Source: Burkholderiales bacterium
Lineage (GTDB): Bacteria; Pseudomonadota; Gammaproteobacteria; Burkholderiales; Burkholderiaceae_C
Assembly: GCA_003241965.1 (NCBI GenBank)
Contig: QBMB01000005.1
Coordinates: forward strand, 1 to 64,000
Reading direction: 5' to 3'
Length of the DNA stretch: 64,000 nucleotides
The position numbers and the translations under genes are program-made. The notes under the pieces are model-generated. The model saw nothing but the letters and a program-made list of their open reading frames with translations, was not told where the DNA came from and ran no database searches. Positions 7,741 through 45,533 of this stretch are shown here, in pieces. Position 1 is the stretch's first letter; each line of letters begins with the position of its first letter.

Positions 7741-9063
7741 TTGCAAATGCTGACACGTGAAGATAATGAGCGGCTGGTCCGTGTGGGTCCAGGGACAGAG
7801 ATGGGTCGCCTGATGCGCCTGTACTGGATCCCGTTCCTGCTGGCTAAGAACGTTGAAGCCGACGGCCAGCCATATCGCGTCCGTCTCCTGGGCGAGGACC
7901 TCGTGGCATTTCGTGATAGCAGCGGCCAGGTCGGGCTGGTCGACCATGCCTGTCCGCACCGGGGCGCGCCGATGGTGCTGGCGCGCAACGAGGAAGGCGG
8001 TCTGCGCTGCATCTACCACGGTTGGAAATTCACCGTCGAGGGGCGCTGCCTGGAGATGCCGGCCGAACCGGCCACCACACGTATGCCATCCACCATGCGC
8101 ATTGGGTCCTACCCAGTGCGTGAGCGCAACGGCGTGCTGTGGACGTACATGGGGCCGGACCCCGAGCAGGCGCCGCAGCTGCCAAGCCTGGAATGGAACA
8201 TGGTGCCGGCGGAGCAAGTGGCCGTTTCCATGCGCGTGCAGGAATGCAACTGGCTGCAGGCGCTGGAAGGCGAGATTGACTCCGCCCATGCAGCCATCCT
8301 GCACGGACGCGTCGATGACAGCGGCGTGATCAACCAGTGGAAGCAGGGACAGGACCTAGCGCCGACCTTCGAATGCTCGGTGCACGAGTCAGGCGTCAGT
8401 ATCGCTTCGCGGCGAAAGACTGCGACCGAGGAAAACTACATCCGCGTCAACCAGTTCCTCATGCCGTTCTGGACGCTCGTGCCACCCCAAAGTCAGTACC
8501 CGGAGCTGAGCGGGCACGCTTGGGTGCCGATCGATGACGAACACACGCTGTGCCTGATGTTCTCCTACCACCCGTCGGAGCCCTTCTATGAGAAGACCCG
8601 CAAGGTGTTCAAGGAAGGCCACGCCGGACGCGAGACGGGTCACGCTTCAGAAGCCTCGTTTCAGGAGTGTCCGATCACGCGCCCGTACCACACGTACTGG
8701 AGCGGCTTCAATCGCGAGAACGCCTACCGTTTCGACGTCAAGCTGATCGGCAAGTACAACGCCGCTTTGCCTGGCTTGTGGGTGCAGGATGCAGCTTGCC
8801 AGTCCGGGGTAACGGCGATCTATGACCGCACGCGTGAGCACCTGGGGACCACCGACACCGGCATCGTCCGGGCGCGCAGGCTGTTGCTCGATACCGTGCG
8901 CAAATACGTGGCAGAAGACGTGCGCCCCGCGTCCGTTAGCAATGCTGACAAGTTCCTCTGGCGCGCCATCTCAATCACCATCCCGGCCGGTGGCGACTGG
9001 AAGGCAGCAGGAGGTGAGTTCATGAAGGCAAAGCTCGGACAGGGTTTTGGTTACCAACCCTGA
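7741..9063 (+). CDS. Rieske [2Fe-2S] aromatic ring-hydroxylating oxygenase, alpha subunit (phthalate dioxygenase-like)
   Basis: Rieske motif CPHRGAPMVLARNEEGGLRCIYHGWKF. Confidence 0.9.
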   Translation: MQMLTREDNERLVRVGPGTEMGRLMRLYWIPFLLAKNVEADGQPYRVRLLGEDLVAFRDSSGQVGLVDHACPHRGAPMVLARNEEGGLRCIYHGWKFTVEGRCLEMPAEPATTRMPSTMRIGSYPVRERNGVLWTYMGPDPEQAPQLPSLEWNMVPAEQVAVSMRVQECNWLQALEGEIDSAHAAILHGRVDDSGVINQWKQGQDLAPTFECSVHESGVSIASRRKTATEENYIRVNQFLMPFWTLVPPQSQYPELSGHAWVPIDDEHTLCLMFSYHPSEPFYEKTRKVFKEGHAGRETGHASEASFQECPITRPYHTYWSGFNRENAYRFDVKLIGKYNAALPGLWVQDAACQSGVTAIYDRTREHLGTTDTGIVRARRLLLDTVRKYVAEDVRPASVSNADKFLWRAISITIPAGGDWKAAGGEFMKAKLGQGFGYQP

Positions 9064-11242: not shown

Positions 11243-11712
11243 CCCATTCCACCAACCCCTATTTGCCTGCTGGCCTGCCGATCCCGGTGTCCGAGCCGGA
11301 CGGCTTGTCCGAGCCCTATTGGGCAGGTCTGCGCGCCGGGCGCCTTCTGGTACAGCGCTGCGCCCATTGCGGCACCTGGCAGTTCGCGCCGGAGTGGATC
11401 TGCCACGGCTGCCACGCCTTTGATCCAGCCTGGGTCGAGGTGGCCCCGAAGGGGTTGATCTACAGCTGGGAGCGGATCTGGCACCCGGCGCATTCGGCGC
11501 TCAAAGACCACGGCCCATACCTGGCCGTGCTGGTTGAACTGCCGCACGCGGGTCATGTGCGGATGGTGGGCAATCTGCTCGGTGACCCCACGCAGGCGGT
11601 GACCATCGGCGCCGAACTGCAAGGCGTCTACGAGCACCATCCCGATGCCTCGCCCGCTTACTCGCTGCTGCAATGGCGACTCGCCGATGCTGCCGACGCC
11701 GCAAACAGGTGA
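11239..11712 (+). CDS. Zn-ribbon/OB-fold protein (DUF35 family)
   Basis: GTG start overlapping previous stop; CAHCGTWQFAPEWICHGC ribbon. Confidence 0.8.
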   Translation: MTHSTNPYLPAGLPIPVSEPDGLSEPYWAGLRAGRLLVQRCAHCGTWQFAPEWICHGCHAFDPAWVEVAPKGLIYSWERIWHPAHSALKDHGPYLAVLVELPHAGHVRMVGNLLGDPTQAVTIGAELQGVYEHHPDASPAYSLLQWRLADAADAANR

Positions 11713-13444
11713 GCCCCGCGCGGCTTCCGAGGCGTTCGACCTGGTCGTCGTGGGGGCGGGCGCTGGCGGCATGGTCGCGGCGTTGGTGGGTGCGCTGGAG
11801 GGCATGCACGTGCTGCTCTGCGAATCGAGCCAACAAGTCGGCGGTACCACCGCGACCTCGGCTGGAACGCTCTGGGTCCCCGGAAACCGTCAAGGCACGG
11901 ATGCCGGCCACGGCGACTCCGTGCACGAGGCGGCCCGCTACCTCGACGCACTCATCGGACCCGACGACGCGGGCGGTTTGAGGCAGGCGTTTTTCGAAAG
12001 TGCCGCACAAGCCATTGACTATCTGGAGGAACGAACCCAGGTCCGGTTTGTCAGCGCTGGCAAGCATCCTGACTACTTGCAGTTGCCCGGGGCGGCGTTG
12101 TCGGGTCGGGCGATTTCTCCTCTGCCATTCGATGGCCGCGTGCTGGGCGCGGAGTTCCATCGGATCCGGCCGCCGCTTCCCGACTTCATGGTGCTTGGCG
12201 GCATGATGGTCAACAAGTCTGACGTACGAGCGCTGGTGCGGCGCTACCGCTCCTGGCCCGACTTTGTGCACTCGGTCAAGCTGGTCGCTCGCCATGCAGC
12301 CGATCGCCTGCGGTATCCGCGCGGCACTCGTTTGGTGATGGGCAACGCGCTGGTCGCGCGCCTTTTTCACAGCCTGCGCAGCGCGGGCGTCGACGTCCGC
12401 TTTGGCTGGAAGCTGGCTGAACTGGACATGAGTGATGGCCGCGCGGTGGGGGCACGCTTCGATGTTGCTGGCGTGTCTCGCACAGTGAGCGGGCGTGCTG
12501 GCGTCGTCCTGGCAACGGGCGGGGTTGGCCACTGCGAGACCCTGCGGCGCGAGCTCGGGCCCGCAGGTCTCGCTTTCCGCTCACTGGCCGCCGACAGCGT
12601 GGCGGGTGAGGGTTTGCTGGCCGCACGCCGCGCGGGCGCAGCACTTGAGCAGCACCATGAGAACTTCTTCTGGCAACCGGTCTCCCAGGTCCCGCGCGCT
12701 GGGGGCAGTACAGGATTGTTTCCGCACCTGTTTCTCGATCGGGCCAAACCTGGTTTGATTGCCTTAAACGGGCGGGGCGAACGCTTCGTGAACGAAGCAG
12801 CTTCCTACCATCACTTCGTTGAGGGCATGTTGCGGAACGGGGGAGGGGAGCCCGGCGGCCCGAGCTGGCTGCTGTGCGACGCCGCGTTCGTGCGTCGCTA
12901 CGGCCTCGGTGTGATCCCGCCCGGCACGCGCCGGCTGGGAACCTGGGAAGAGCGTGGCTACCTCGTCACCGCACCCACTCTGGAGGTGCTGGCGCAACGG
13001 CTGGGAATCGATGGCGCCAGCCTGGCTGCGACAGTGGCCCGCAGCAATGCCTTTGCCCGCTCCGGGCTCGACCCCGAGTTCGCCAAGGGGAGTACTGAAT
13101 TCGACCGTTTCAATGGGGACCCAGCCACACCCGGCAATCCATGCCTGGGTTCGATCGAGGTGCCGCCTTTTTGCGCCTTGGCCATCTGGCCGGCCGACGC
13201 GGCTTCCAGCGGCGGCCTGGTCACCGATCGTGATGGCCGGGTGATGTCTGCGGCGGGCGCACCAATTCTGGGCTTGTACGCCTGTGGCAACGATGCCGCT
13301 TCCATCATGCGCGGCAGTTATCCCGGCCCGGGCACCACGCTCGGCCCCGCCTTCGCAGCCGGCTATCGCATCGGCATGCACGCGCGCCATGTACTGGACG
13401 GGCGCTCCGCGCCCGTCCCCGCTTTCATCCGCAAACGAGCTTGA
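11687..13444 (+). CDS. FAD-dependent 3-ketosteroid dehydrogenase-like flavoprotein
   Basis: FDLVVVGAGAGGMVAALVGALEG; C-terminal GNDAASIMRGSYPGPGTTLGPAFAAGYRIG. Confidence 0.8.
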   Translation: MLPTPQTGEPRAASEAFDLVVVGAGAGGMVAALVGALEGMHVLLCESSQQVGGTTATSAGTLWVPGNRQGTDAGHGDSVHEAARYLDALIGPDDAGGLRQAFFESAAQAIDYLEERTQVRFVSAGKHPDYLQLPGAALSGRAISPLPFDGRVLGAEFHRIRPPLPDFMVLGGMMVNKSDVRALVRRYRSWPDFVHSVKLVARHAADRLRYPRGTRLVMGNALVARLFHSLRSAGVDVRFGWKLAELDMSDGRAVGARFDVAGVSRTVSGRAGVVLATGGVGHCETLRRELGPAGLAFRSLAADSVAGEGLLAARRAGAALEQHHENFFWQPVSQVPRAGGSTGLFPHLFLDRAKPGLIALNGRGERFVNEAASYHHFVEGMLRNGGGEPGGPSWLLCDAAFVRRYGLGVIPPGTRRLGTWEERGYLVTAPTLEVLAQRLGIDGASLAATVARSNAFARSGLDPEFAKGSTEFDRFNGDPATPGNPCLGSIEVPPFCALAIWPADAASSGGLVTDRDGRVMSAAGAPILGLYACGNDAASIMRGSYPGPGTTLGPAFAAGYRIGMHARHVLDGRSAPVPAFIRKRA

Positions 13445-15924: not shown

Positions 15925-15978
15925 AATAGATGAAAACCACTGATTTTGATGAAAAGGGCGCCTGCCCCCGGAGACTCC

Positions 15979-17139
15979 ATGGACCTAGACGTAACACCCG
16001 CACAGCAGGCCTTTCGCGAGGAAGTAAGAGCCTTTGTTCGCGACCGCCTGCCTTCGGACATCCGCGAACGCTTGCGTGCCGGGCATCCGCCCCGCAAGCA
16101 GGACACCGTGACCTGGCAGCGCATCCTCAACGAGCGCGGCTGGGCTGCTCCTCACTGGCCGCGCCAGTTCGGCGGCGCCGAGCTGGGGCAGATGGAACGC
16201 TTGATCCTGCTTGACGAGATGTATCGCGCCCCGGCTCCGCTGCCGCAAGTCTTCAACGTCACCATGCTCGGTCCCGTGCTGATGAAATTCGGCACCCCTG
16301 CGCAGTGTGAATACTTCCTGCCGAAGCTGGCGAATCTCGACCTGTGGTTCTGCCAGGGCTTCTCTGAACCAGGCTCCGGCTCCGATTTGGCTTCGCTGCG
16401 GACGGCCGCACGGCGCGACGGGGATCAGTATGTCGTCAATGGCCAGAAGATCTGGACTACCACGGCACACCTGGCTGACTGGGTGTTTGCCCTGGTACGT
16501 ACCAACGTCGAAGCACGGAAGCAGGAGGGCATCTCCTTCCTGCTGATCGACCTGAAATCACCCGGCATCACCATACGGCCGATTTATTCCATCGACGGTG
16601 AACACCACCTCAATGAGGTGTTCTTCGACGAAGTGAGGGTGCCCGTGGACAACCTGGTGGGCCAGGAGAATCGTGGCTGGGACTGCGCCAAGTACCTGCT
16701 GGGCAACGAGCGTACCGGTATCGCCAACGTCGGCTTGTGCCGCGAACGCCTGGACCTCGCTCGCGAAATGGCCAGTCGCACCCGCGAAGGCGGTGTCTGC
16801 CTGCTCGACGATTCGAAGTTGCGCGGCGAGTTCGCGGTGCTCGACGCCGAAATTCGGGCACTCGAAGTGACCAACTACCGCTTCCTGCTGACGCCAAGCG
16901 CGCAGCAGGCGCTGCCTGCCTTCGCTTCGGTGCTGAAGCTCAAGGGAGTGGAGCTGCAACAGGACATCAACACGCTGCTCGCCAGACTGGCTGGGCCTGC
17001 TGGCCTGGAGCGCCGCGGCTCCGACGACATCGTGCATGGACCTCTGACGCCCCGCTACTTCTACTCCCGCGCAGCCAGCATCTACGGCGGTACCAGCGAA
17101 GTGCAAAAGGACATCCTGGCCAAGGCTGTTGTCGGCTGA
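15979..17139 (+). CDS. Acyl-CoA dehydrogenase
   Basis: FCQGFSEPGSGSDLASLRTAA...; C-terminal IYGGTSEVQKDILAKAVVG. Confidence 0.9.
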   Translation: MDLDVTPAQQAFREEVRAFVRDRLPSDIRERLRAGHPPRKQDTVTWQRILNERGWAAPHWPRQFGGAELGQMERLILLDEMYRAPAPLPQVFNVTMLGPVLMKFGTPAQCEYFLPKLANLDLWFCQGFSEPGSGSDLASLRTAARRDGDQYVVNGQKIWTTTAHLADWVFALVRTNVEARKQEGISFLLIDLKSPGITIRPIYSIDGEHHLNEVFFDEVRVPVDNLVGQENRGWDCAKYLLGNERTGIANVGLCRERLDLAREMASRTREGGVCLLDDSKLRGEFAVLDAEIRALEVTNYRFLLTPSAQQALPAFASVLKLKGVELQQDINTLLARLAGPAGLERRGSDDIVHGPLTPRYFYSRAASIYGGTSEVQKDILAKAVVG

Positions 17140-17148
17140 GGATAAAAA

Positions 17149-18282
17149 ATGAACTTTGAACTGAACGATGAGCAGCGCGCGCTGCAGGACAGCCTTTCCC
17201 GTTTGCTGGCCGACCGGTATGGCTTTGAAAAGCGGCGTGGCTTTGCCGCCAGCCCAGCGGGCCATGACGAGGGCACCTGGCGCAAGCTCGGCGAGCTGGG
17301 TGTCACCGCGCTGCTGGTGCCTGAAGTGCATGGTGGCTTTGGCGGAAGTGGGTGTGATCTGCTGCCCGTGATGCAGGAACTGGGCGCTGCACTTTCGCTG
17401 GAACCCTTCCTCGCCTCAAGCGTTCTGGGCGCTACCGCCATCCGGCTGGCGGCCGATGACGTGTTGCAGGATCGCATGCTTCCAGGTGTGGCGGCTGGTA
17501 CGACCTGTGTCGCCTGGGCGCATGACGAGGTGGCTGGCAGGCACACTCCGCGCTGGGTTGAAACTCGCGCGCTGCGCCAGGGTGATCGGTGGGTGCTGGA
17601 TGGCGGGAAGGCCAACGTGCTGGCTGCGGGCCTGGCGCAGCACTTTGTGGTGACCGCGCGGGTTTCGGGTGCGGCTGATGCGCCGGACGGTTGCGCACTT
17701 TTCCTGGTGGACGCGGGAGCCGCCGGTCTCGAAAACCGGGTGTTCCGTATGGTGGACGACTCGCTTGGGGGTGAGCTGAATTTGCGCGGTGTGGCCGCGA
17801 TTCCCCTGGGTGACCCAACCGATGGCAGACGCGCCCGTGCAGCCATCGACACCACGCTGGCAGTCGGTACCGCAGCAGCTTGCGCCGACATGGTCGGAGC
17901 CATGCAGGCGGCATTCCGGCTCGCAATGGACTACCTCAAGACGCGAAAACAGTTCGGTCGCCTGATCGGCGAGAACCAGGCACTGCGCCATCGCGCTGCC
18001 GAGATGCTGGTCAGTCTGGAACTCGCACGCAGCATGGCGATCGCCGCAGCGGTTGCAGTCGATAGGCCCGAGGGAGCGGACGCCGCCCTTGACGTGCACC
18101 GGGCAAAGCTTTCCGTGGGGCGCCATGCACGTACCTTGGCCCACGGAGCCATCCAGTTGCATGGCGGCATCGGCATGACGGAAGAGTACGCCGTGGGCCA
18201 CTACCTGCGACGCATTCACGTACTGGACCAATTGTTCGGGGACGGTGACGCCCACGCCATGCGGCTTGCGGCACTCGCCTGA
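17149..18282 (+). CDS. Acyl-CoA dehydrogenase (second subunit of tandem pair)
   Basis: MNFELNDEQRALQDSLSRLLADRYGF...; QLHGGIGMTEEYAVGHYLRRI. Confidence 0.88.
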   Translation: MNFELNDEQRALQDSLSRLLADRYGFEKRRGFAASPAGHDEGTWRKLGELGVTALLVPEVHGGFGGSGCDLLPVMQELGAALSLEPFLASSVLGATAIRLAADDVLQDRMLPGVAAGTTCVAWAHDEVAGRHTPRWVETRALRQGDRWVLDGGKANVLAAGLAQHFVVTARVSGAADAPDGCALFLVDAGAAGLENRVFRMVDDSLGGELNLRGVAAIPLGDPTDGRRARAAIDTTLAVGTAAACADMVGAMQAAFRLAMDYLKTRKQFGRLIGENQALRHRAAEMLVSLELARSMAIAAAVAVDRPEGADAALDVHRAKLSVGRHARTLAHGAIQLHGGIGMTEEYAVGHYLRRIHVLDQLFGDGDAHAMRLAALA

Positions 18283-18320: not shown

Positions 18321-19850
18321 ATGAGCCAGACCCTGATTTACCTCGACGACCGTGCAGTCACACGCGATGACTTGCTGATGCGAGGACGGCGTGCCGCCAC
18401 CGGTTTTGACCACCTCGGCGTGCGTGAAGGTGACAGCGTTGCACTGTTGCTTCGCAATGACTTTGCGTTCTTCGAAGTGCAGCAAGCTGCCGCCGCTATC
18501 GGCGCGTATGCGGTCCCACTGAACTGGCACGGGAAGGCGGACGAGGCCACCTACATCCTGAACGACGCCAGGCCCAAGGTGCTTGTGGCGCATGCAGACC
18601 TGCTGGAGCCGCTGCGTCAGCACATCCCCGCAGGCATGAAGATCCTGGTCGTGCCAACGCCGCCCGAGGTGCAATCACGCCACAGCATCGCGCCCGAGCG
18701 CGCCAGTCCGACGGAGGGCGACATCGTCTGGCAGGCGTGGTGCGACAGCTTCGAGCCGTGGGAGGCGCCCGCCAAACGCAGCCGCGCCACCATGATTTAC
18801 ACCTCGGGCACCACGGGTCATCCCAAAGGAGTCAGACGCGACCCTGCCAGTCCCGAACAGGCGAGCGCCTATGTGGATCTGATCCAGCGCGTCTACGGCC
18901 TGACCCCGGGGGTGCGTGCACTGGTCACGGGGCCGCTCTATCACGCATCGCCCAATGCCTATGGTCGCCAGGCGCTGATGGCGGCCGAGGTGCTTGTGCT
19001 TCAGTCCAAGTTCGATCCAGAGGAAACGCTGGCGGCGATTGAGAAGCACCGGATCACCAACGCGGTGATGGTTCCGACCATGTTTGTTCGCATCCTGCGG
19101 CTGCCCAAGGAAGTTCGCGAGCGCTACGACGTCAGCTCCCTGCGCTGGGTCACGCACACCGGCGCTCCGTGCCCGAAGGAGGTGAAGCAAGCGCTGATGG
19201 AAGAGTGGGGTCCGATCATCTATGAAACCTATGGGGGATCGGAGGTTGGAACCGCCACCCTGGCGACCCCAACGGACTGGTTGGAGCACCCAGGCTCGGT
19301 CGGTGTGCCGACGCCGGGCACCCGCCTCGCCTTCTACGGCGAAGACGGTGACCAAGTGCCGGAGGGCGAAGTCGGAGAGATCTACATGCGAGTGCCGGCC
19401 TATGCTGACTTCACGTACCTCAATCACGAGGAAAAGAGAAAGGGCGTTGAGCGCGATGGCCTGATCAGCTGCGGTGACGTCGGTTATCTCAAGAGCGGGC
19501 GGCTGTACCTGTGCGACCGCCGCTCCGACATGGTGATCTCAGGTGGTACGAATATCTACCCCGCCGAGATCGAGATGGTCCTCCTGCAGTGCCCCGGCGT
19601 GCAGGATTGCGCGGTCTTCGGCATACCCGACGATGACTTCGGCGAGTCGCTCGCAGCCGCGGTGGAGTTGATCCCCGGCGCAAAGATGAGCGTGCGCGAG
19701 ATTCAGGATTACCTGGAGACCCACCTCGCCAGATACAAGGTGCCCAAGCGCATCGACTTCCACGCGTCATTGCCGCGCGAAGACAGCGGCAAGATCTTCA
19801 AACGCCGCCTGCGCGATCCGTTCTGGCAGAACGCTGGTCGAAAAATCTGA
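18321..19850 (+). CDS. AMP-dependent acyl-CoA synthetase/ligase
   Basis: TMIYTSGTTGHPKGVRRD, YETYGGSE, DRRSDMVISGGTNIYPAEIE. Confidence 0.92.
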   Translation: MSQTLIYLDDRAVTRDDLLMRGRRAATGFDHLGVREGDSVALLLRNDFAFFEVQQAAAAIGAYAVPLNWHGKADEATYILNDARPKVLVAHADLLEPLRQHIPAGMKILVVPTPPEVQSRHSIAPERASPTEGDIVWQAWCDSFEPWEAPAKRSRATMIYTSGTTGHPKGVRRDPASPEQASAYVDLIQRVYGLTPGVRALVTGPLYHASPNAYGRQALMAAEVLVLQSKFDPEETLAAIEKHRITNAVMVPTMFVRILRLPKEVRERYDVSSLRWVTHTGAPCPKEVKQALMEEWGPIIYETYGGSEVGTATLATPTDWLEHPGSVGVPTPGTRLAFYGEDGDQVPEGEVGEIYMRVPAYADFTYLNHEEKRKGVERDGLISCGDVGYLKSGRLYLCDRRSDMVISGGTNIYPAEIEMVLLQCPGVQDCAVFGIPDDDFGESLAAAVELIPGAKMSVREIQDYLETHLARYKVPKRIDFHASLPREDSGKIFKRRLRDPFWQNAGRKI

Positions 19851-20878
19851 TGCATGCACCAAAAAACCTGGGTGCGGGCACCTTGGCAGCTTCGGTGCAG
19901 CGCGCGATGGTGCGCCACGGGTCGGGCGAGGGCGAGGTCATCAACCTGCGGCGACTGACCGGCGGAGCCACCAAGCAGACCTGGGCATTCGATTGGGTCA
20001 GGGCGTCTGCACAGCAGCCGCTGATCTTTCAGCAGTTTCCCGCGCCGGTGTCGCCTGCGAAGGGCGTACCCAAACTGACGGCGTCGCAAGATGCCGCCGT
20101 CATGGTGGTGGCCAGCGCCGGCGGTGCGCCGGCACCAGTGGTACGACTTGTGCTGGAGCCTGCGGACGGTATGGGCGAAGGCTATGTGACCGAGTTCGTG
20201 GCCGGCGAAACGCTGGGCCGGCGCGTGGTGCGTGACGAAGCGTTCGCACCTGCCCGCCAGGCGATGGCAAGCCAATGCGGGGCGATCCTCGCCGCCATCC
20301 ATCGCCTGCCGACGGACTCGCTTCCCTTCCTGCAACAGCTGTCTCCGGCCGACGAGCTGAAAGTCTACGGAGACTCGTTGGCTGGCTGCGGAGTTCGGCA
20401 TCCTGCGCTGGCCTATGCGCTGCGCTGGATCGAAGAGAACCTCCCCCAGCGCTGGACTCCGGCGCTGGTGCATGCGGATTTCCGCACCGGTAATCTCATC
20501 GTGGGCCCCGATGGCGTGCGCTGCGTACTCGATTGGGAAATCGCTCGCATCGGCGACGCGATGCAAGACCTGGGTGTGTTGTGCATGCGCTCCTGGCGTT
20601 TCGGCGGATCAGGCGAGGTCGGTGGGTTTGGCGAACGCGAAGATCTCTATGCCGCTTATGAGGCGGCCTCTGGCCAGCCGGTGGATCCGCAGCGCGTGCG
20701 CTTCTGGGAAGCCTTCTCCAATCTGAAGTGGGCCATTGCCTGTGCCCGGCGTGGCGCGTCCCTGCGTGCCGACGGCCGGCAGGCCAGCGTGGAACTGAGC
20801 GCAGTCGGCCGCCGTATGGAGGAGCCCTTGTGGGACTTCCTCTCTTTGACTGGCGCCGCCCCTGGGAGCATCCGATGA
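19850..20878 (+). CDS. APH-family phosphotransferase (ACAD10/11-kinase/LvaA-like)
   Basis: LVHADFRTGNLIVGPDGVRCVLDWEIARIGDAMQDLG kinase motif. Confidence 0.85.
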   Translation: MHAPKNLGAGTLAASVQRAMVRHGSGEGEVINLRRLTGGATKQTWAFDWVRASAQQPLIFQQFPAPVSPAKGVPKLTASQDAAVMVVASAGGAPAPVVRLVLEPADGMGEGYVTEFVAGETLGRRVVRDEAFAPARQAMASQCGAILAAIHRLPTDSLPFLQQLSPADELKVYGDSLAGCGVRHPALAYALRWIEENLPQRWTPALVHADFRTGNLIVGPDGVRCVLDWEIARIGDAMQDLGVLCMRSWRFGGSGEVGGFGEREDLYAAYEAASGQPVDPQRVRFWEAFSNLKWAIACARRGASLRADGRQASVELSAVGRRMEEPLWDFLSLTGAAPGSIR

Positions 20879-21234
20879 CGACCTTCGTACCCAATGCCGA
20901 ACGGCTGTTGCAAGCGGCCGTGGATTATCTCGACGCGGAACTGCTGTCAACGCTGGAGGGTTACCACCATTTCCAGCTGCGGATCTGCGTGAACACGCTG
21001 CGCATCGTCGCACGCGAAATGGTTCAGGCGCCCGCCCTGGAGCAGCAGGAACAAGAACGCCTCCAACATTTGCTTGGCCATGCAGGCAGCGTGGCCGAGC
21101 TCAACGGAGAAATCAACGATCGCATCGCCAACGGCCAACTGCCGCTGGATGCGCTCGGATTGGCCGAGCACCTGCGGGACACCCTGCGCGGTGCGCTGGC
21201 CATCAACAACCCCACCTGGATCACCAGGCCTTGA
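20875..21234 (+). CDS. DUF6285-like small protein, translationally coupled to kinase
   Basis: RLLQAAVDYLDAELLSTLEGYHHFQLRICVNTLRIVAREM; ATGA overlap with upstream kinase. Confidence 0.7.
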   Translation: MTTFVPNAERLLQAAVDYLDAELLSTLEGYHHFQLRICVNTLRIVAREMVQAPALEQQEQERLQHLLGHAGSVAELNGEINDRIANGQLPLDALGLAEHLRDTLRGALAINNPTWITRP

Positions 21235-21263: not shown

Positions 21264-22229
21264 ATGACCATCAACCGTCGCCAGGCCCTCACAGCCAGCA
21301 TTGCATCTTTCGTCGGCATAGCGGCCACGCCCGCCCGCGCTCAGGGCTATCCCACCGGGGTCATCAAGTTCGTGATTCCGACCGCGCCGGGCGGCGGACA
21401 CGATACGATGATGCGGGTCATCGGCCAGAAACTCACCGAGAGCCTGGGCCAGCCCTGCATCATCGAATCGAAACCCGGTGCAAGCGGTGCAATCGCGGCG
21501 CAGGCGGTTGCACAGGCCGCCCCCGACGGCCTCACCTTCCTCCTCGGGTACAGCGCTCTGTTGAGCAACACGGTGCTGATGGCCAAGGCTCCCTACCGCA
21601 TGGATGAATTCGCCCCTGTGAACATGCTGGCACTCACCCCCATCGCCCTCGGGATCAGCGAGACGCTCGCTGCCTCCACGCTCAAGCACTACGTCGCCAT
21701 CGCCAAGACCCAGCCTGGCAAGCTGTCGTACGGTTCATACGGCCAAGGTTCGGGTGGCCACTTTGTCGGTGAATTGTTCAATATGGCCGCTGGCCTGGAT
21801 ATCGTTCACATACCCTACAAGGGCGAGGCGCCTGCCTTGGTGGATCTGATGTCCGGTCAGGTCCACGCAGCCTTTACTTCGATTGGTGGCGTCAAGCGGT
21901 ATCCAGGCAGGATCCGTCCCCTTGCGGTTGCCACGGCCGAACGTTCGCCCAGTTACCCCGATGTTCCGACATTCGCGGAATTGGGGTATCCGCAAGTCAA
22001 CATGCCGGGTTGGGGTGGTTTGTTCGCGCCAGCGAAAACCCCACAAAACATCATCGACAAGGTTTCTGCCGAGATGAACCGGATCGTCTTGTTGCCCGAC
22101 GTCAAAGCCAAGATGGCCGAACTCGGTTTCGACTCAGTGGGCTGGGCGCCGCCAAAGATGAACCAGTTCCTCAAGGAGCAGCTGGCCCAGACTCGCACGT
22201 TGGTCGAGTCCGGCCGAGTGAAGCTCTGA
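21264..22229 (+). CDS. Bug/TctC family periplasmic substrate-binding protein
   Basis: YPTGVIKFVIPTAPGGGHDTMMRVIGQKLTESLGQPCIIESKPGASGAIAAQAV. Confidence 0.9.
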   Translation: MTINRRQALTASIASFVGIAATPARAQGYPTGVIKFVIPTAPGGGHDTMMRVIGQKLTESLGQPCIIESKPGASGAIAAQAVAQAAPDGLTFLLGYSALLSNTVLMAKAPYRMDEFAPVNMLALTPIALGISETLAASTLKHYVAIAKTQPGKLSYGSYGQGSGGHFVGELFNMAAGLDIVHIPYKGEAPALVDLMSGQVHAAFTSIGGVKRYPGRIRPLAVATAERSPSYPDVPTFAELGYPQVNMPGWGGLFAPAKTPQNIIDKVSAEMNRIVLLPDVKAKMAELGFDSVGWAPPKMNQFLKEQLAQTRTLVESGRVKL

Positions 22230-23539: not shown

Positions 23540-24711
23540 TGCCTTTCCATGATCAGGGTGGCACTGCCGTGCCGGGAACCCAGCAATCCGCCCATGCCCT
23601 GGGCAAGCGCCAGGCTGCAGTTGGGGACCTGGACCTTCGGGTGCGCCTCGCCGCGCAGCTGGCGCACCGCTTCGATCACCTTGGTGATGCCGCCACGATT
23701 GGCCGGATGGTTGTTGCACAGGCCACCGCCGTCGGTGTTGAACGGCAGCTTGCCCACGCCCGAGATCAAGTTGCCGTCGGCGACGAACTTGCCGCCCTCG
23801 CCCTTGGCGCAGAAGCCCAGGTCTTCCAGCTGCATCAGCACGGTGATGGTGAAGCTGTCGTAGATGGACGCGTAGTCGATGTCGGCCGGCTTGACGCCGG
23901 CTTCTCCGAACGCAGCCGGACCGGTAATGGCCGCGCCCGACCAAGTCAGATCGACCGCGCCGCCGAGCTGGCCCTTGATGGTCTCGCCCGCGCCAAGGAT
24001 GGTCACAACCGGGCGATTCAGTTTGCGGGCGATCTCGGGCCGCACCATCAGCAGCGCGCCGCCGCCGTCGCTGACCACGCAGCAGTCCAGCTTGTGCAGC
24101 GGATCTGAAATGAGGGGGGAGGCCAGTACGTCTTGCACCGTGACGACTTCCCGCAGCATCGCGTTCGGGTTGTATTGCGCGTGTGTGGAGGCGGCCACCT
24201 TGATCCAGGCGAGCTGCTCGGACGTCGTGCCGAATTCGTACATGTGGCGGGCGGCGGCCAGTGCGTACATGTTCACCGTTACTGGCGCATAAGGCATCTC
24301 CCAGGGCACGTCCGGCGTGCTGCTGGTCACCAGGCGGGCGCCGACGCCGACGCCACTGGCACCCTCGGTGCGCGGTCGCCCGGCCAACGTGATCAGCGCC
24401 ACATTGCACTTGCCGGTGGCGATGGCCTGAGCCGCGTGCGCCACGTGGATCAAGTAGGCGGAGCCGCCTGTATCGGTGGTGTCCAGGTGGCGCAGTCGGG
24501 TGAGCCCGAGGTAGTCCGCCATGCTGTTGGCGCCCAGTCCCGGCGCGTCGCCGGCGCAGAAGTAGCCGTCCACATCCTGAAGGGAGAGCCCTGCATCCTC
24601 AAGTGCCCCCTTCGCGCATTCGGCGTGCAGTTGGGCCACGGTTTTGTCAGGGGCCTTGCGGGTCGGGTGTTCGAAAGCGCCTGCTATGCAGGCCTTGCCT
24701 TTGATGGTCAT
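23536..24711 (-). CDS. Thiolase-like / lipid-transfer protein
   Basis: HLDTTDTGGSAYLIHVAHAAQAIATGKCNVALI; NTDGGGLCNNHPANRGG. Confidence 0.82.
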   Translation of the reverse strand: MTIKGKACIAGAFEHPTRKAPDKTVAQLHAECAKGALEDAGLSLQDVDGYFCAGDAPGLGANSMADYLGLTRLRHLDTTDTGGSAYLIHVAHAAQAIATGKCNVALITLAGRPRTEGASGVGVGARLVTSSTPDVPWEMPYAPVTVNMYALAAARHMYEFGTTSEQLAWIKVAASTHAQYNPNAMLREVVTVQDVLASPLISDPLHKLDCCVVSDGGGALLMVRPEIARKLNRPVVTILGAGETIKGQLGGAVDLTWSGAAITGPAAFGEAGVKPADIDYASIYDSFTITVLMQLEDLGFCAKGEGGKFVADGNLISGVGKLPFNTDGGGLCNNHPANRGGITKVIEAVRQLRGEAHPKVQVPNCSLALAQGMGGLLGSRHGSATLIMERQ

Positions 24712-24753
24712 TGTTTCTGCTCCGGTTGACGGCGATGAGGCTGCAGTATATCA

Positions 24754-24766
24754 TTGGTTCAACCAT
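24754..24766. promoter_or_regulatory. Palindromic operator site 5 (TTGGTTCAACCAT)
   Basis: Between divergent thiolase-like (-) and SDR (+) operons. Confidence 0.7.
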
Positions 24767-24782
24767 ACAAAGGAAATGTGCA

Positions 24783-25556
24783 ATGGATCCCATCGTCAAT
24801 CTTCAAGGCCGAACCATCGTTGTCACCGGTGCCGGCCAAGGTATCGGCAAGGCCCTGGTCGAACTGTCGCTTGGCCTCGGCGCCAATGTGGTCGCGGTCG
24901 ATCTCAACGGAGAAACACTGGGCGCGACCCTGGCACCCCTGCCTGCCGACCGCGTGCTAGCGGTGCAGGGCAACGTGGCCGACCCCGCCGTGGCGGACCG
25001 CGCAGTCGCCGATGCAGTGACCAGGTTTGGCGCGGTCCATGGGCTTGTGAACAATGCTGGCATCGTGCGTCCAGCCATGATCGACAAGATGACAGACCAG
25101 CAGTGGAGTGACGTGATCGACGTTCACCTGAGTGGCTCGTTCTACTGGACCCGCGCCGTCGGCCGGCACATGATCGAACGCGCAAAGGGTGGCGATCGCA
25201 CGGGTGGAGCAGTCGTCAACATCTCATCCGACGCCGGCCGAAAGGGCTCCATCGGCCAGATCAACTACGCCGCTGCAAAGGCCGGCATGCTGGGCATGAC
25301 GATGACGGCGGCGCGCGAATGGGGCCGCTACAACATCCGCACGAATTCGGTGTGCTTTGGCGTCGTTGAGACGCCCATGACGGAAGTCGTGCGCGGGGAA
25401 AAATTCCGCGACAACATGCTGGCCCAGATCCCGATGGGTCGCTGGTCAACGCCCGACGAGGTGGTGAAGACGATCTGCTTCCTGCTGTCCGACGGCGCCA
25501 GTTACATCACGGGCCAGCACCTCGGTGTGAATGGCGGTTTCCACATCAGCCTCTGA
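24783..25556 (+). CDS. Short-chain dehydrogenase/reductase
   Basis: TIVVTGAGQGIGKALVELSLGLGANVVAVDL, NNAGIV, YAAAKAG. Confidence 0.92.
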   Translation: MDPIVNLQGRTIVVTGAGQGIGKALVELSLGLGANVVAVDLNGETLGATLAPLPADRVLAVQGNVADPAVADRAVADAVTRFGAVHGLVNNAGIVRPAMIDKMTDQQWSDVIDVHLSGSFYWTRAVGRHMIERAKGGDRTGGAVVNISSDAGRKGSIGQINYAAAKAGMLGMTMTAAREWGRYNIRTNSVCFGVVETPMTEVVRGEKFRDNMLAQIPMGRWSTPDEVVKTICFLLSDGASYITGQHLGVNGGFHISL

Positions 25557-25568
25557 GCGGCACCGACC

Positions 25569-26603
25569 GTGCAGCAAACCGCAGAGCTTGATCGCGCTCG
25601 TCTCGGGGACTTCATCCGCAGCCAGGTCGAGCCGTTCGAAGGTGACGTGGCGGTGCGCCACATCGAGGGGGGCCAGTCCAACCCCACCTATATCGTCGAT
25701 GCAGGCGCGCGGCGCTATGTTCTTCGGCGCAAACCCTCGGGCCAGTTGCTGCCCTCTGCCCATGCCGTGGAACGCGAGTTCCGGGTGATGCACGCGCTGG
25801 CTGGATCCGCCGTTCCTGTGCCCAGTACCTGTGCGCTGTGCGAAGACCCCGGGGTGTTGGGAACCAGCTTCTACCTGATGGATTTTGTCGAGGGAAGAAT
25901 CCTGGGTGACCAGACCCTGCCGGGGATGGTGCCCCTGGAGCGGCATGCGATGTATGTCGAGATGAACCGTGTACTTGCATGTCTGCATGGAGTCGACTAC
26001 CTCGAGCGTGGCCTGCAGGATTTCGGTCGCGAAGGCCAGTACGTGGAACGACAGGTCGAGCGATGGTCGCGCCAGTACCGCGCCTCGGAAACACATCTGA
26101 TTCCAGAGATGGATAACCTGATCGGCTGGTTGGGGGATCGGATTCCCCGTCAGCTTGGCACGAGCATCGTTCACGGCGACTACCGGCTGGACAACGTGAT
26201 CTTCCACGCCACCGAACCGCGCATCGTCGCGGTGCTGGATTGGGAGCTCGCGACGCTGGGCGATCCACTCGTGGACTTCGCTTACCACTGCATGACCTGG
26301 CACCTGGCGCTGGGGACGCACCGCACGCTGGCCGGTGCCAACCTCGCCGCTCTGGGAATTCCCGGTGAGACCGAGTACGTCGCGCTGTATTGCCAGCACA
26401 CCGGCCGGGAGGTTGACGCCGTACTCGAACACTGGCAGTTCTATCTGGCGTTCAACATGTTCCGGTTCGCCGCTATCCAGCAAGGCGTGGCGCGCCGCGC
26501 ACTGGACGGCAATGCCGCGAACAGCAAGGCGCGTGAAGTGGGCAGCCGCGTTGCGGTAACTGCCGCGGCGGGCTGGGCGATGGCATGCAGAGCCACTCAC
26601 TGA
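25569..26603 (+). CDS. APH-family phosphotransferase (ACAD10/11-kinase-like)
   Basis: IVHGDYRLDNVIFHATEPRIVAVLDWELATLGDPLVDFAYHC. Confidence 0.88.
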   Translation: MQQTAELDRARLGDFIRSQVEPFEGDVAVRHIEGGQSNPTYIVDAGARRYVLRRKPSGQLLPSAHAVEREFRVMHALAGSAVPVPSTCALCEDPGVLGTSFYLMDFVEGRILGDQTLPGMVPLERHAMYVEMNRVLACLHGVDYLERGLQDFGREGQYVERQVERWSRQYRASETHLIPEMDNLIGWLGDRIPRQLGTSIVHGDYRLDNVIFHATEPRIVAVLDWELATLGDPLVDFAYHCMTWHLALGTHRTLAGANLAALGIPGETEYVALYCQHTGREVDAVLEHWQFYLAFNMFRFAAIQQGVARRALDGNAANSKAREVGSRVAVTAAAGWAMACRATH

Positions 26604-26613
26604 GGGCTTCAAT

Positions 26614-26766
26614 TTGAACTTGGAACCCACACTCCGCGCACAGGTCTTGCAGTCGCAACAGGCAGCGTTCAGGGACGCACACATCTACCTTGCCGAACCG
26701 TGGTTCCCTGACGAAGTCCATCACAACCAGATCGCCAGGCTGGAACTGGCGCGCTGGGCCACCTGA
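26614..26766 (+). CDS. Candidate small ORF (50 aa, TTG start)
   Basis: MNLEPTLRAQVLQSQQAAFRDAHIYLAEPWFPDEVHHNQIARLELARWAT*; GAGGG ribosome-binding-like sequence upstream; below ORF-track length cut-off. Confidence 0.4.
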   Translation: MNLEPTLRAQVLQSQQAAFRDAHIYLAEPWFPDEVHHNQIARLELARWAT

Positions 26767-26777
26767 AAGGAATTTCC

Positions 26778-27821
26778 ATGTACATGCCTCCCAATACCCA
26801 GCTGCGGCTCGACCCGCGCGACGACTACACGCATCCGCCTGAACCGGTGAGCAACTACAACGAGAGCATGTACTTCAATGCTTTTGACACGCGCACCGGT
26901 ATCGGTGCCTGGATGCGCATTGGTAATCGCCCCAATGAAGGCCATGCGGAGATGACCTGCTGCGTCTATCTCCCGGACGGCCGGGTTGGCTTCATCTTCA
27001 GCCGCCCGACGATGACGGGCAACGAGGAGATGAACGCTGCGGGGATGCGCTTCGAAGTGCTGGAGCCCTTCAAGCGCCTGCGGGTCACCTTCGAAGGCGA
27101 CCTGCTGCTGATGGACGATCCGCATGCGATGGTCGACCCGAGTGCGGCGTTCAAGCGCTATCCCAAGCGGCCGGCGTCGATCGTCCTGGAGTTCGAGGGT
27201 GTCTCGCCCATGCACGGCGGCGAGATCGTCGGCATGGACGGACAGCCGATCGAACTCGACCCCGAGCACTCGGTGTACCGCGGTCACACCGAACAGAACA
27301 TGGCGGTCAACGGCCATATCACGGTGGATGGGCAGCGGCACGAACTGGACGGCGGAACCGGCTACCGCGACAAGTCCTGGGGACCGCGACACTGGCACAG
27401 CTTCTACTGGTACAAGTGGCTGCCGGTGACCTTCGACCGTGATTTCGGCATTCTGCTGTCCATCAAGGGTCGGCCCGAGGGCGGCCCGGACCGCATCAGC
27501 GGCAACGTGCTGCGCGACGGCGTCTACGAGCCCGTGATCGATGGTCGCATCGAGACCGACTACGACGCAGCGTGGTACCCCCGCGGCGTCACGGCCTGGG
27601 TTACCACAGCACGCCAGACCTATGTGCTGCGAGGTCGCATCCTGACGACAGTGCCGCTGCGCCACAAGCGCGCTGGCGTTACCGACTGGAGCACCTACAC
27701 GCGCATCACTGAAAGCATGAGTGAATACACCTGTGAAGGCCGTACCGCGCTCGGCATGACCGAATACTGCGATGTCATGAACGACGGTGTACCGATTTCG
27801 GCCGCGAAGGAGTCCGCATGA
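26778..27821 (+). CDS. DUF7064/DUF7065-like protein of unknown function
   Basis: Complete ORF, conserved-looking; MHGGEIVGMDGQPIELDPEHSVYRGHTEQNMAVNGHITVDGQ. Confidence 0.6.
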   Translation: MYMPPNTQLRLDPRDDYTHPPEPVSNYNESMYFNAFDTRTGIGAWMRIGNRPNEGHAEMTCCVYLPDGRVGFIFSRPTMTGNEEMNAAGMRFEVLEPFKRLRVTFEGDLLLMDDPHAMVDPSAAFKRYPKRPASIVLEFEGVSPMHGGEIVGMDGQPIELDPEHSVYRGHTEQNMAVNGHITVDGQRHELDGGTGYRDKSWGPRHWHSFYWYKWLPVTFDRDFGILLSIKGRPEGGPDRISGNVLRDGVYEPVIDGRIETDYDAAWYPRGVTAWVTTARQTYVLRGRILTTVPLRHKRAGVTDWSTYTRITESMSEYTCEGRTALGMTEYCDVMNDGVPISAAKESA

Positions 27822-28636
27822 CCGAGTGCGTGCTGCATGAAAGGGTTGGCGGCGTCGCGGTCGTCACACTGAACCGTCCACAGTCGAAGAACGCGCTCGA
27901 CGCGGCCACGGTCGACGCTTTGACCGGTTTGTTTCGGGGTTTCCGAGAGGACGACATCGTGCGGGCGGTGGTTCTCACAGGCGCGGGGAACGACTTCTGC
28001 GCCGGCGGCGACGTCAAGCAGATGGGGCAGGGTGGTCCGCGCACGCCGGAGCAGCGCCGCGCTGGCATGGGCCGTTACGGCGACCTGGCCAAGGCCATTG
28101 CATCGCTCGACAAGCCGGTCATCGCGGCCGTCGACGGCGTTGCCTACGGCGGCGGCCTGAGCCTTGCCTTGCTCTCGGACATCGTGCTCGTGAGCGAGCG
28201 CGCCCGCATGGCGATGGTGTTCCATCGCATTGGCCTGGTGCCCGACATCGGTTCCTGGTACACGCTTCCGCGTGTGGTGGGGCTGCAGCGGGCCAAGGAA
28301 CTGGTGTACTCGGCCCGCGAGTTCGGCGCCGTCGAGGCGCTGCAGATGGGGCTGGCCCTGGAGGTTCTGCCCAGTGCGGAGTTGCTGCCGCGTGCTATGG
28401 AAATGGCGCGCAGTTTCGAGGGCGCGCCGCCCACGGCCATGAGCCTGTCGAAGCAGGCCCTGCAGGCTTCACTTCAAAGCGACCTGAACACCATGCTGGA
28501 CATGGAAGCCACCGCGCAGGCCATTGCCGGGGGAAGCGACTATGCGCGCGAATCGGTGCGCCGATTCGCAGCCCGTGAGCCGGCCCAGTTCCGTTGGCCC
28601 GGCAGAAACACGACGACAACGGGAAACAAACAATGA
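27818..28636 (+). CDS. Enoyl-CoA hydratase/isomerase family protein
   Basis: VVLTGAGNDFCAGGDVKQM, AAVDGVAYGGGLSLALLSDIVL. Confidence 0.9.
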   Translation: MTECVLHERVGGVAVVTLNRPQSKNALDAATVDALTGLFRGFREDDIVRAVVLTGAGNDFCAGGDVKQMGQGGPRTPEQRRAGMGRYGDLAKAIASLDKPVIAAVDGVAYGGGLSLALLSDIVLVSERARMAMVFHRIGLVPDIGSWYTLPRVVGLQRAKELVYSAREFGAVEALQMGLALEVLPSAELLPRAMEMARSFEGAPPTAMSLSKQALQASLQSDLNTMLDMEATAQAIAGGSDYARESVRRFAAREPAQFRWPGRNTTTTGNKQ

Positions 28637-29505
28637 TCGATTACGGAAAAACCAAGGCTTGGCGTTCAGACCCGGTGCGCCACAGCTACGCCACGAAGGA
28701 CACCATCCTCTATGCGCTGGGCCTGGGACTGGGCACCGACCCTCTGGACGCGCAGCAACTGCGCTACGTGTATGAAAAAGACCTGGTGGCACTGCCCACC
28801 ATGGCCGCGGTGTTGGCCTCGCCCGGCGCCTGGATGCGCGATCGCAAGGAACTGGGCATCGATTTTCTCAAGCTGGTTCATGGCGAGCAGGGCGTCACCA
28901 TCCATTCTCCGCTGCCTGTTGCAGGCACCGTGGTCGGTGAAAGCCGTGTGGTGCGCCTGGTCGACAAGGGCGAGGGCAAGGGCGCCATCCTGCATGTGGA
29001 GAAGTCACTCAAGGACGAGGCAAGCGGGCAGTTGCTCGCAACGGCGGAGCAGGTCCTGTTCCTGCGCGGGGACGGTGGCTTTGCGGCTGACCAGGGAGGT
29101 GACGAGCCGGCTCCCGCGCTGCCTGCCCCTCCGGATACGGCGGCCGATGTCGCGCTGGAATTGCCCACGCGCCCGGAAGCGGCGCTGCTGTACCGGCTCT
29201 CGGGCGACCTCAACCCGCTGCATGCCGATCCCGTGGTCGCTGCGAAGGCGGGCTTCCCCAAGCCGATCCTGCACGGGCTGGCCTCGTGGGGCAACGCCGG
29301 CCGTGGCATCGTGCAGCTGTTCTGTGGCCACGACCCGGCGCGCCTGCGCTCGATTAGGGCCCGCCTGACCTCGCCGGTTTACCCCGGCGAGACACTGGTG
29401 CTCGAATGCTGGCGGGTGGCGGCCGATGAGGTGGCATTCCGCGCCCGGGTGAAGGAGCGCGATGTGGTCGTTCTCAACAACGGTCGCGCGGGGATTGCTG
29501 CATGA
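28633..29505 (+). CDS. MaoC family (double hot-dog) enoyl-CoA hydratase
   Basis: ALLYRLSGDLNPLHADPVVAAKAGFPKPILHG hydratase 2 motif. Confidence 0.9.
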   Translation: MIDYGKTKAWRSDPVRHSYATKDTILYALGLGLGTDPLDAQQLRYVYEKDLVALPTMAAVLASPGAWMRDRKELGIDFLKLVHGEQGVTIHSPLPVAGTVVGESRVVRLVDKGEGKGAILHVEKSLKDEASGQLLATAEQVLFLRGDGGFAADQGGDEPAPALPAPPDTAADVALELPTRPEAALLYRLSGDLNPLHADPVVAAKAGFPKPILHGLASWGNAGRGIVQLFCGHDPARLRSIRARLTSPVYPGETLVLECWRVAADEVAFRARVKERDVVVLNNGRAGIAA

Positions 29506-41077: not shown

Positions 41078-42346
41078 TCAAACAGAGTCTGACGCTGGTG
41101 ACACGCTATCGGCATTGCGCAGTTGGTCCAGGTAGTTGGCCCATTCCGTCATCATGGCCCGCCGCTGATCGATGAACTCCGCACGGTCGTAAGCGGCCCC
41201 CAGGGGACCAGATTTGCCGTGTGCGAGTTGAGCTTCGATAGCCTCGGCGTGCATGTTCAACTTTTCGACCATGATGGTTCGGGCCATCGCTCGAAACCCA
41301 TGCGGTGTCATGTCGTCGTTGCTGTACCCCATGCGCCTCAAGGCGACGCGGAGGGTGTTTTCGCTCATGGGGCGCTGCGAACTGATCAGGCTGGGGAACA
41401 CAAAACGTGAATGTCCTGAGATGGGCTGTAGCTCTCGGAGCAATTCGATGGCTTGGAGCGCCAGCGGAACCAGGTGGGGTCGACCATTGACCTTGCCGTA
41501 GACGGTGCGCTTCATCTTGGCGGCGGGGATCGTCCACAGACAAACATCGAAGTCCACCTCAGCCCATTCCATGCAACGTATGTTGCCGGGACGCTGGAAG
41601 AGCAGGGCCGACAGGAGCAGCGCTGTGCGCGTGACGGGCTGGCCAGAGTACTCGTACATGGACCGCACCAACTCGCCGGCCTTTGTTGGTTCAAGGATGG
41701 CCGCCATGTGTTTGATGTTCAGCGGTTGCAGCGCACCGTGAAGGTCGGGGGCGGGGTTTCGCTCGCAGCGCCCCGTGGCAATTCCGTAGCGAAACACCTG
41801 TCCGGCTGTCTGGCGCAAGGTGTGTGCAGTTTCCCGGGCTCCGCGCTTCTCGATACGGCGCAGCGTGTTGAGCAGCATGGGGGCGGTGATCTCCGGTAGG
41901 GGAACAGGACCGATCCAGGGGAACAAATCTTTTTCCATTCGTTCCAGCCACCTCTGCGCATACTGTTCGCTCCATCCGCTGGCTTTGGTGCTGTGCAGCT
42001 CCCGCGCCACTTCCGCAAACGTGTTCTTCTCGAGGAGCTTGGCCTCCAGGCGCTCTATCTGCCGGCGTATTGCGGGGTCGGAGCCCGTTTGCAGCAAGCG
42101 CCGGGCAACTTCCCGGTCGCTGCGTGCCTGCTTGAGTGACACTGCAGGGTAGGCACCCAGCGCCAGGCGCTTTTCTTTGCCGGAGTGGTAGTACTTCCAG
42201 AACCAGCGTTTGGAGCCATTCGGCGACGTCTCAAGGTAGAGTCCGCCAGAATCGGTGAGCCGCGCACGTGCTTTGCCCTCGGGGCACGCAGCTGTTTTGC
42301 AGGCGAGGTCGGTGAGCATAGGGGAACAAAATCGGCGAATGGTCAA
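41078..42346 (-). CDS. P4-type tyrosine recombinase/integrase
   Basis: DUF4102-like N-terminus (GGLYLETSPNGSKRWFWKYYHSGKEKRLALGAYPAVSLKQAR); catalytic HGFRAMAR and C-terminal Tyr (GAAYDRAEF); ATG start possibly 42319. Confidence 0.92.
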   Translation of the reverse strand: MTIRRFCSPMLTDLACKTAACPEGKARARLTDSGGLYLETSPNGSKRWFWKYYHSGKEKRLALGAYPAVSLKQARSDREVARRLLQTGSDPAIRRQIERLEAKLLEKNTFAEVARELHSTKASGWSEQYAQRWLERMEKDLFPWIGPVPLPEITAPMLLNTLRRIEKRGARETAHTLRQTAGQVFRYGIATGRCERNPAPDLHGALQPLNIKHMAAILEPTKAGELVRSMYEYSGQPVTRTALLLSALLFQRPGNIRCMEWAEVDFDVCLWTIPAAKMKRTVYGKVNGRPHLVPLALQAIELLRELQPISGHSRFVFPSLISSQRPMSENTLRVALRRMGYSNDDMTPHGFRAMARTIMVEKLNMHAEAIEAQLAHGKSGPLGAAYDRAEFIDQRRAMMTEWANYLDQLRNADSVSPASDSV

Positions 42347-42501
42347 AAATCGCGGTTTGTTCCCCTGATTGTTCCCCTGAAATCATCAGGATGCAACAGG
42401 CCAGTTTGAAACCTCTTGAGATTGATAAACGAAAAAATCGTTACAAATCAAGGGAATTTCAGGCGGCGTGGGATGTCTCGGGATTTCTTGGAATGTATCC
42501 A

Positions 42502-42578
42502 TGGCCTGCCCGGAGGGACTCGAACCCCCGACCTGCTGCTTAGAAGGCAGCTGCTCTATCCGGTTGAGCTACGGGCAG
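42502..42578 (-). tRNA. tRNA-Arg (anticodon TCT), CCA encoded
   Basis: CTGCCCGTAGCTCAACCGGATAGAGCAGCTGCCTTCTAAGCAGCAGGTCGGGGGTTCGAGTCCCTCCGGGCAGGCCA folds as cloverleaf. Confidence 0.95.
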
Positions 42579-45497: not shown

Positions 45498-45533
45498 GGT
45501 GTCTCCTGTGGGTGATCGGGTGTTTGAAACGGT

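Follow-up and report, generated by a model that had tools for sequence, protein, structure and literature searches.

What does a kinase of the APH fold do in a catabolic gene cluster, where its gene lies between those for a coenzyme A (CoA) ligase and a small protein of the family DUF6285? This arrangement is found on a contig of a Burkholderiales bacterium (QBMB01000005.1, GenBank assembly GCA_003241965.1), of which we analysed positions 1 to 64,000, a stretch of 64,000 nucleotides hereafter called the window. An earlier note on this DNA had described an acyl-CoA ligase, an APH-fold kinase and a small coupled protein following two acyl-CoA dehydrogenases (ACADs), and the open reading frames (ORFs) and Pfam families agree with that description:

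18321–19850, + strand: ligase ORF, 509 amino acids (aa); Pfam AMP-binding (3e-59) plus AMP-binding_C
19850–20878, + strand: APH-fold kinase ORF, here K1, 342 aa; Pfam APH PF01636 (5.8e-30)
20875–21234, + strand: DUF6285 small-protein ORF, 119 aa; Pfam PF19802 (4.6e-25)

We propose that 19850–21234 encodes a two-subunit ATP-dependent alcohol kinase with the architecture of LvaA-LvaB but on a separate branch, and we assign the whole proposed pathway a probability of about 0.5. Family membership, pairing, natural fusions, intact catalytic residues and the lack of the catalytic Asp and the HCMR motif in the neighbouring ACADs can be read from the sequence. At the ligase/kinase junction (TGATG) the TGA stop and the ATG start have one base in common, and the kinase stop overlaps the DUF6285 start as ATGA; the three ORFs are translationally coupled. 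The ligase falls in subfamily NF009071/PRK12406 (775 bits versus a cut-off of 701). Like the levulinate system of Pseudomonas putida, in which LvaA and LvaB act with LvaC, D and E, the locus has an APH-fold kinase gene overlapped by a DUF6285 gene, and a ligase in the cluster. Unlike in the lva operon, the ligase gene lies directly upstream of K1, a FadE26/27-like ACAD pair takes the place of the Asp/HCMR LvaC-type ACAD, and the regulators are of the GntR type instead of a PrpR_N sigma-54 regulator.

The earlier note had assigned the small protein to DUF6285/LvaB, and this assignment is borne out: it passes the curated PF19802 cut-off with 88.6 bits against 28.1. In Pseudomonas sp. ML96 (locus L070), a divergent sigma-54/PrpR_N regulator is followed by kinase, DUF6285, ACAD, a short-chain dehydrogenase/reductase (SDR) and ligase, an order that matches lvaR-lvaABCDE as given in PMC6692424. 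P. putida KH-21-134 (L091) has a PrpR_N regulator, a kinase of 352 aa, a DUF6285 protein of 118 aa, ACAD, an SDR of 255 aa, ligase and DUF485. Because DUF6285 fills the lvaB position in these and other lva operons, between the kinase and an Asp-type ACAD, LvaB of P. putida-type lva operons is, judged by family and gene order, DUF6285. According to the same source, which cites Rand 2017, the 12-kDa protein LvaB is recovered in pull-downs with LvaA; growth on levulinate and formation of 4-phosphovaleryl-CoA require both proteins. A different order, like that of P. citronellolis, occurs in P. putida W15Oct28 (L133, 6001–10097: kinase, DUF6285, His-phosphatase, Asp-type ACAD, SDR). PMC6692424 reported no lvaB for that order; because L133 has a DUF6285 gene between kinase and phosphatase, it may have been overlooked.

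How general is the pairing? DUF6285 proved scarce: 10 of the 250 genomes searched from the order have it, as do 40 of the 399 from the phylum. Of 40 DUF6285 loci, extracted together with at most about 17 kb of flanking DNA, 38 have a related kinase directly upstream, which in view of this rarity is more than chance would explain. The remaining two are L046 and L047; in L047 kinases lie about 1.5 kb downstream. Conversely, scanning named genomes with the LvaA-type kinase of L070 gave 80 loci, mostly from Pseudomonas and including several P. putida strains, and DUF6285 followed the kinase in all 79 that were not cut by a contig end. Kinase and DUF6285 form a single open frame in nine loci (L045, L061, L072, L075, L076, L077, L079, L080 and L081), as Pfam verified in the case of L045 and L076; these natural fusions back the idea, raised from the start/stop overlap, that the two proteins may form a stoichiometric complex. 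The pair also stays with the ligase in relatives, and four of them (G606, Cupriavidus metallidurans CH34, G793 and Variovorax paradoxus VAI-C) keep the ACAD pair as well. The V. paradoxus VAI-C locus lies on a plasmid (L178) and has an additional crotonase gene between ACAD pair and ligase and two further Glu-type ACAD genes downstream of DUF6285. DUF6285 had no match among PDB sequences up to E 10, and a literature search returned no paper containing the word DUF6285.

What might the small subunit contribute? In the ACAD11 kinase, R86, an Arg beside the helix-C Glu, contacts CoA (PMC12440821). The equivalent Arg is present in 8/8 ACAD11-type kinases, in only 2 of 71 DUF6285-partnered kinases and in none of the seven members of the clade that contains K1. 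Arg47 of DUF6285 is conserved in 94% of 126 sequences. Since R86 is mostly absent from the partnered kinases while Arg47 is conserved, the alignments are consistent with the hypothesis that part of CoA binding has passed to the small subunit. An AlphaFold model of the natural fusion L045, in which DUF6285 is helical, reached a pTM of 0.91 across both domains; freely floating domains would hardly reach this value, which indirectly supports a defined domain arrangement. Plasmid-record rows were left out of the structure-prediction sets. The top matches of a fold search with the fused model were kinases only, and none was informative on the fold of DUF6285.

Is K1 then simply LvaA? In the kinase tree, DUF6285-partnered kinases split from ACAD10/11-type kinases, and K1 falls outside the clade that unites the LvaA kinases (49 rows, SH-aLRT 100). 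K1 belongs to a separate clade of seven rows (SH-aLRT 100, stem 0.94) with G606, G676, G793, C. metallidurans CH34 and two Variovorax sequences; deep branching outside the LvaA clade is poorly resolved. This placement rules out K1 as an LvaA orthologue. The catalytic-loop and metal-binding residues are identical to those of LvaA: H208, D210, R212, N215, D228 and E230 are intact in K1 and invariant in 7/7 clade members in the alignment, D210 being assigned as the catalytic residue and N215 and D228 as metal ligands. The C-lobe has thus suffered none of the losses that would speak against a kinase. ACAD10 and ACAD11 and their bacterial orthologues resemble K1 as APH kinases, acting on 4-hydroxyacyl-CoA before an ACAD-type elimination, but they have no DUF6285 partner and carry R86 and an Asn in the loop; K1 is distant from ACAD11 (phmmer 1e-4).

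The most serious rival takes its cue from the fold and the neighbours. K1 could act like 25-hydroxysteroid kinase (25-HSK) of Sterolibacterium denitrificans: its target would be a free steroid- or terpenoid-like compound, not yet activated with CoA, whose tertiary or secondary alcohol it would phosphorylate, and a separate lyase would complete an ATP-dependent dehydration. As published, 25-HSK uses ATP to activate an alcohol that is then eliminated (PMC8449060), and in the fold search with the K1 model its structures with steroid ranked first (9ft5 and 9fsg; TM 0.69–0.73), followed at similar TM scores by Rv3168 and 3dxp. The neighbourhood is likewise of a steroid side-chain or ring type: a KstD-like flavoprotein (window 11645–13444; best PDB match 3-oxosteroid 1-dehydrogenase 7p18, 3e-86), a Rieske oxygenase (window 7741–9063; matched over its full length by 7fhr, the putative alpha subunit of a phthalate 4,5-dioxygenase, 4e-228), the FadE26/27-like pair and a thiolase/DUF35 pair. 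However, 3dxp, an ACAD11-type structure, fits the K1 model equally well (TM 0.73–0.75), and by sequence 25-HSK is farther from K1 (profile 9e-23) than the ACAD11-type kinases are (1e-30 to 3e-35). At 19–20% identity K1 is not a close relative of 25-HSK, for which no DUF6285 partner is reported and whose substrate is not a CoA ester, whereas the K1 gene is translationally coupled to that of a CoA ligase. We therefore regard a 25-HSK-like reaction as possible but unlikely. A literature search for a steroid-cluster precedent found nothing direct. A polycyclic or terpenoid acid is a plausible substrate for K1.

A second alternative is that K1 is catalytically altered or a pseudokinase, which would bind nucleotide differently and serve as a regulator or in another transfer. 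Two changes in the N-lobe raise this question: (i) the end of beta-3 reads ILQQxP instead of ILRRxP, an Arg-Arg to Gln-Gln change with Gln in 7/7 members of the K1 clade, whereas the beta-3 Arg is kept in 71/71 other DUF6285-partnered and 8/8 ACAD11-type kinases; and (ii) the helix-C Glu is Asp in 6/7. The long stem branch points the same way. The glycine loop, however, changed from GGASQET to GGATKxT, with Lys in 7/7 members against Gln in 63/71 kinases elsewhere, so that K42 is present in exactly those members that lost the Arg. Lys gain and Arg loss are both ungapped and map to a single event on the tree. In the AlphaFold model of K1 (pLDDT 92.9), K42 of the glycine loop stands immediately before beta-2 (43–51), and Q61, which occupies the place of the beta-3 Arg, lies towards the end of that strand (54–62). 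In WNK kinases, a lysine of beta-2 substitutes for the beta-3 one and the enzymes are active (PMC4718504); by analogy, K42 possibly replaces the function of the lost Arg. WNK enzymes are protein kinases, and the shared loss of a beta-3 basic residue with gain of a lysine near the start of beta-2 would be convergence at most. If the lysine has indeed been relocated in this way, the K1 clade would provide one of the rare examples of an active-site swap among small-molecule kinases. Together with the invariant HxD, N, DxE and R212 and the conserved operon, the lysine makes loss of kinase function improbable. The earlier note's likeness to LvaAB thus holds for the DUF6285 partner and the catalytic residues and fails for orthology to LvaA and for the N-lobe Arg, whose loss the Lys possibly compensates; the target that the note suggested, a gamma- or other non-beta-hydroxyl on a larger acyl-CoA, is conceivable.

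What removes the phosphate? The following features bear on this step:

15946–17139, + strand: ACAD large subunit, PimC/FadE26-like; NCBIfam pimC_large 6.8e-131, under cut-off; start probably the ATG at 15979
17149–18282, + strand: ACAD small subunit, PimD/FadE27-like; NCBIfam pimD_small 1.8e-81, under cut-off
44238–45497, − strand: ACAD10/11/LvaC-type dehydrogenase, adjoining K3; PDB 8v3u/2wbi 1e-142
45534–46619, − strand: K3, ACAD10/11-type kinase by the tree; 52% identity to K2, a further kinase of the window described below

In a complete LvaEABC-like unit, the two ACADs encoded upstream of the ligase-kinase-DUF6285 trio would themselves eliminate the phosphate, as the earlier note's comparison with LvaC and ACAD10/11 implied. 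Families and gene order do resemble lva, and lva-type loci do have an ACAD beside kinase and DUF6285. ACAD10/11 and LvaC handle the 4-phosphate with an HCMR helix and an Asp that serves as the base (PMC12440821, PMC11342911). In a comparison of 129 ACAD sequences, drawn from the window and from the loci that we had extracted, 89/90 Asp-type ACADs had HCMR. Among kinases with a typed ACAD neighbour, that neighbour was of the Asp type for 42/43 in the LvaA clade and 1/16 outside it (Fisher p 6e-12, a value that overstates independence because it reflects just three changes on the tree). The large ACAD has Gly at the position of Glu376 of the medium-chain enzyme MCAD and a Glu at the FadE26/IVD position (LGNERTG); the small one has Phe at the Glu376 position and no acid at either base position. 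The HCMR columns read TGIA and A-C-A-D, respectively, so the motif is absent from both. These residues rule out the adjacent ACADs as LvaC-type enzymes and largely refute the complete lva-like unit, which we consider very improbable.

The nearest solved relatives of the large ACAD are FadE26 and Tcur3483 (PDB 4x28, 6wy9), and that of the small one is Tcur3481 (PDB 6wy8_A). As in FadE26-FadE27, Tcur3483-Tcur3481 and PimC-PimD, two adjacent genes (15946–18282) encode one subunit with a Glu, here at the FadE26/IVD position, and one without a base, the organisation of a FadE26/27-type heteromeric dehydrogenase; unlike PimC and PimD themselves, both subunits score under the equivalog cut-offs. Because Asp and HCMR are lacking and FadE26 and the Tcur proteins are closest, the pair should oxidise an acyl-CoA rather than eliminate phosphate. 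When the genome was searched with ACAD11, the sole close relative among the ACADs recovered was the 44238–45497 product, which has both Asp and HCMR; three distant ones likewise have Asp at the base position. As 44238–46619 combines an ACAD11-type kinase with an Asp/HCMR ACAD, both marks of the ACAD10/11 system, it appears to be the real candidate in the window for 4-hydroxyacyl-CoA dehydroxylation; a B. pseudomallei LvaA/LvaC-type pair makes and uses 4-phospho-acyl-CoA (PMC11342911). Finally, an aminoglycoside or macrolide resistance kinase has nothing but the Pfam family name APH in its favour and can be dismissed, as NCBIfam resistance models score far under cut-off and the setting is a catabolic operon with a DUF6285 partner.

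How would a two-subunit alcohol kinase work here? In the proposed pathway, the ligase would form a CoA thioester and K1-DUF6285 would, by phosphorylation, convert a hydroxyl that beta-oxidation cannot deal with into a leaving group, with DUF6285 probably contributing part of the CoA/substrate site. The phosphate would be eliminated by an enzyme other than the adjacent ACAD pair, either the 44238 product or another, and the resulting enoyl-CoA would then pass through the FadE26/27-like heteromeric dehydrogenase, crotonase, MaoC and thiolase. The kinase activity, the CoA-ester substrate, the elimination step, the role of DUF6285 and the order of steps are all things we infer. Several observations weigh against the proposal. 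The fold search places first an enzyme acting on a non-CoA alcohol; the beta-3 Arg of K1 is lost and K42 is a plausible substitute only; and neither the operon nor the genes flanking the kinase in those sister clusters that we examined include an Asp/HCMR ACAD, which leaves the elimination step without an obvious local enzyme. Still, because of the separate branch, the rearranged ATP site and the different neighbour enzymes, K1-DUF6285 is probably an LvaAB-like variant for a different substrate. The LvaAB architecture itself is known; what differs is the separate clade, the changed ATP site and the other dehydrogenase partners.

The remaining features of the neighbourhood are:

21264–22229, + strand: TctC-type solute-binding protein, downstream of DUF6285; Pfam TctC 7.1e-62
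25569–26603, + strand: K2, second APH kinase, ACAD11-type; phmmer to ACAD11 8v3v 1e-71, and tree

The TctC-type gene starts at ATG 21264 with AAAGGAG just before it and may be on the same transcript as DUF6285. K2 has no DUF6285 partner and lies in a set (window 24711–29505) of SDR, K2, a DUF7064/7065 protein, crotonase and MaoC; C. metallidurans CH34 and G606 keep this set together with K1-DUF6285. As a guess, the DUF7064/7065 protein might take a phosphorylated or hydrated intermediate as its substrate. A search of 23 genomes of the same genus gave no close match to the ligase, and the catabolic cluster therefore resembles an island acquired by integration. K2 is in the same island as K1, and K3 probably lies outside it. 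Thiolase-like proteins, a DUF35 protein, MaoC, crotonases and CoA-transferases are also encoded in the island. Elsewhere in the window, a tyrosine integrase lies beside a tRNA-Arg gene (42502–42578, − strand; window 41078–42578), and 42440–42517 recurs at G000:C177:68803–68877 with 85% identity, a candidate att site.

What do these observations mean beyond this locus? A tentative generalisation is that DUF6285-partnered kinases might constitute a general class of two-subunit alcohol kinases, within which the K1 branch would have shifted its basic anchor for ATP out of beta-3 and into the glycine loop, would have no adjacent ACAD10/11-type lyase and, as part of a mobile catabolic island, would prepare an acyl-CoA derived from a ring compound or a terpenoid for dehydroxylation; we hold this broader statement to be doubtful in its entirety. 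The comparisons tie the unannotated family DUF6285 to a genetically essential subunit, LvaB, and kinase plus DUF6285 emerges as a recurrent, sometimes fused unit well outside levulinate operons. The loci split into those with an Asp/HCMR ACAD beside the kinase, where the elimination enzyme is at hand, and those with none, a division that bears on predicting the catabolism of hydroxylated lipids, terpenoids and steroids.

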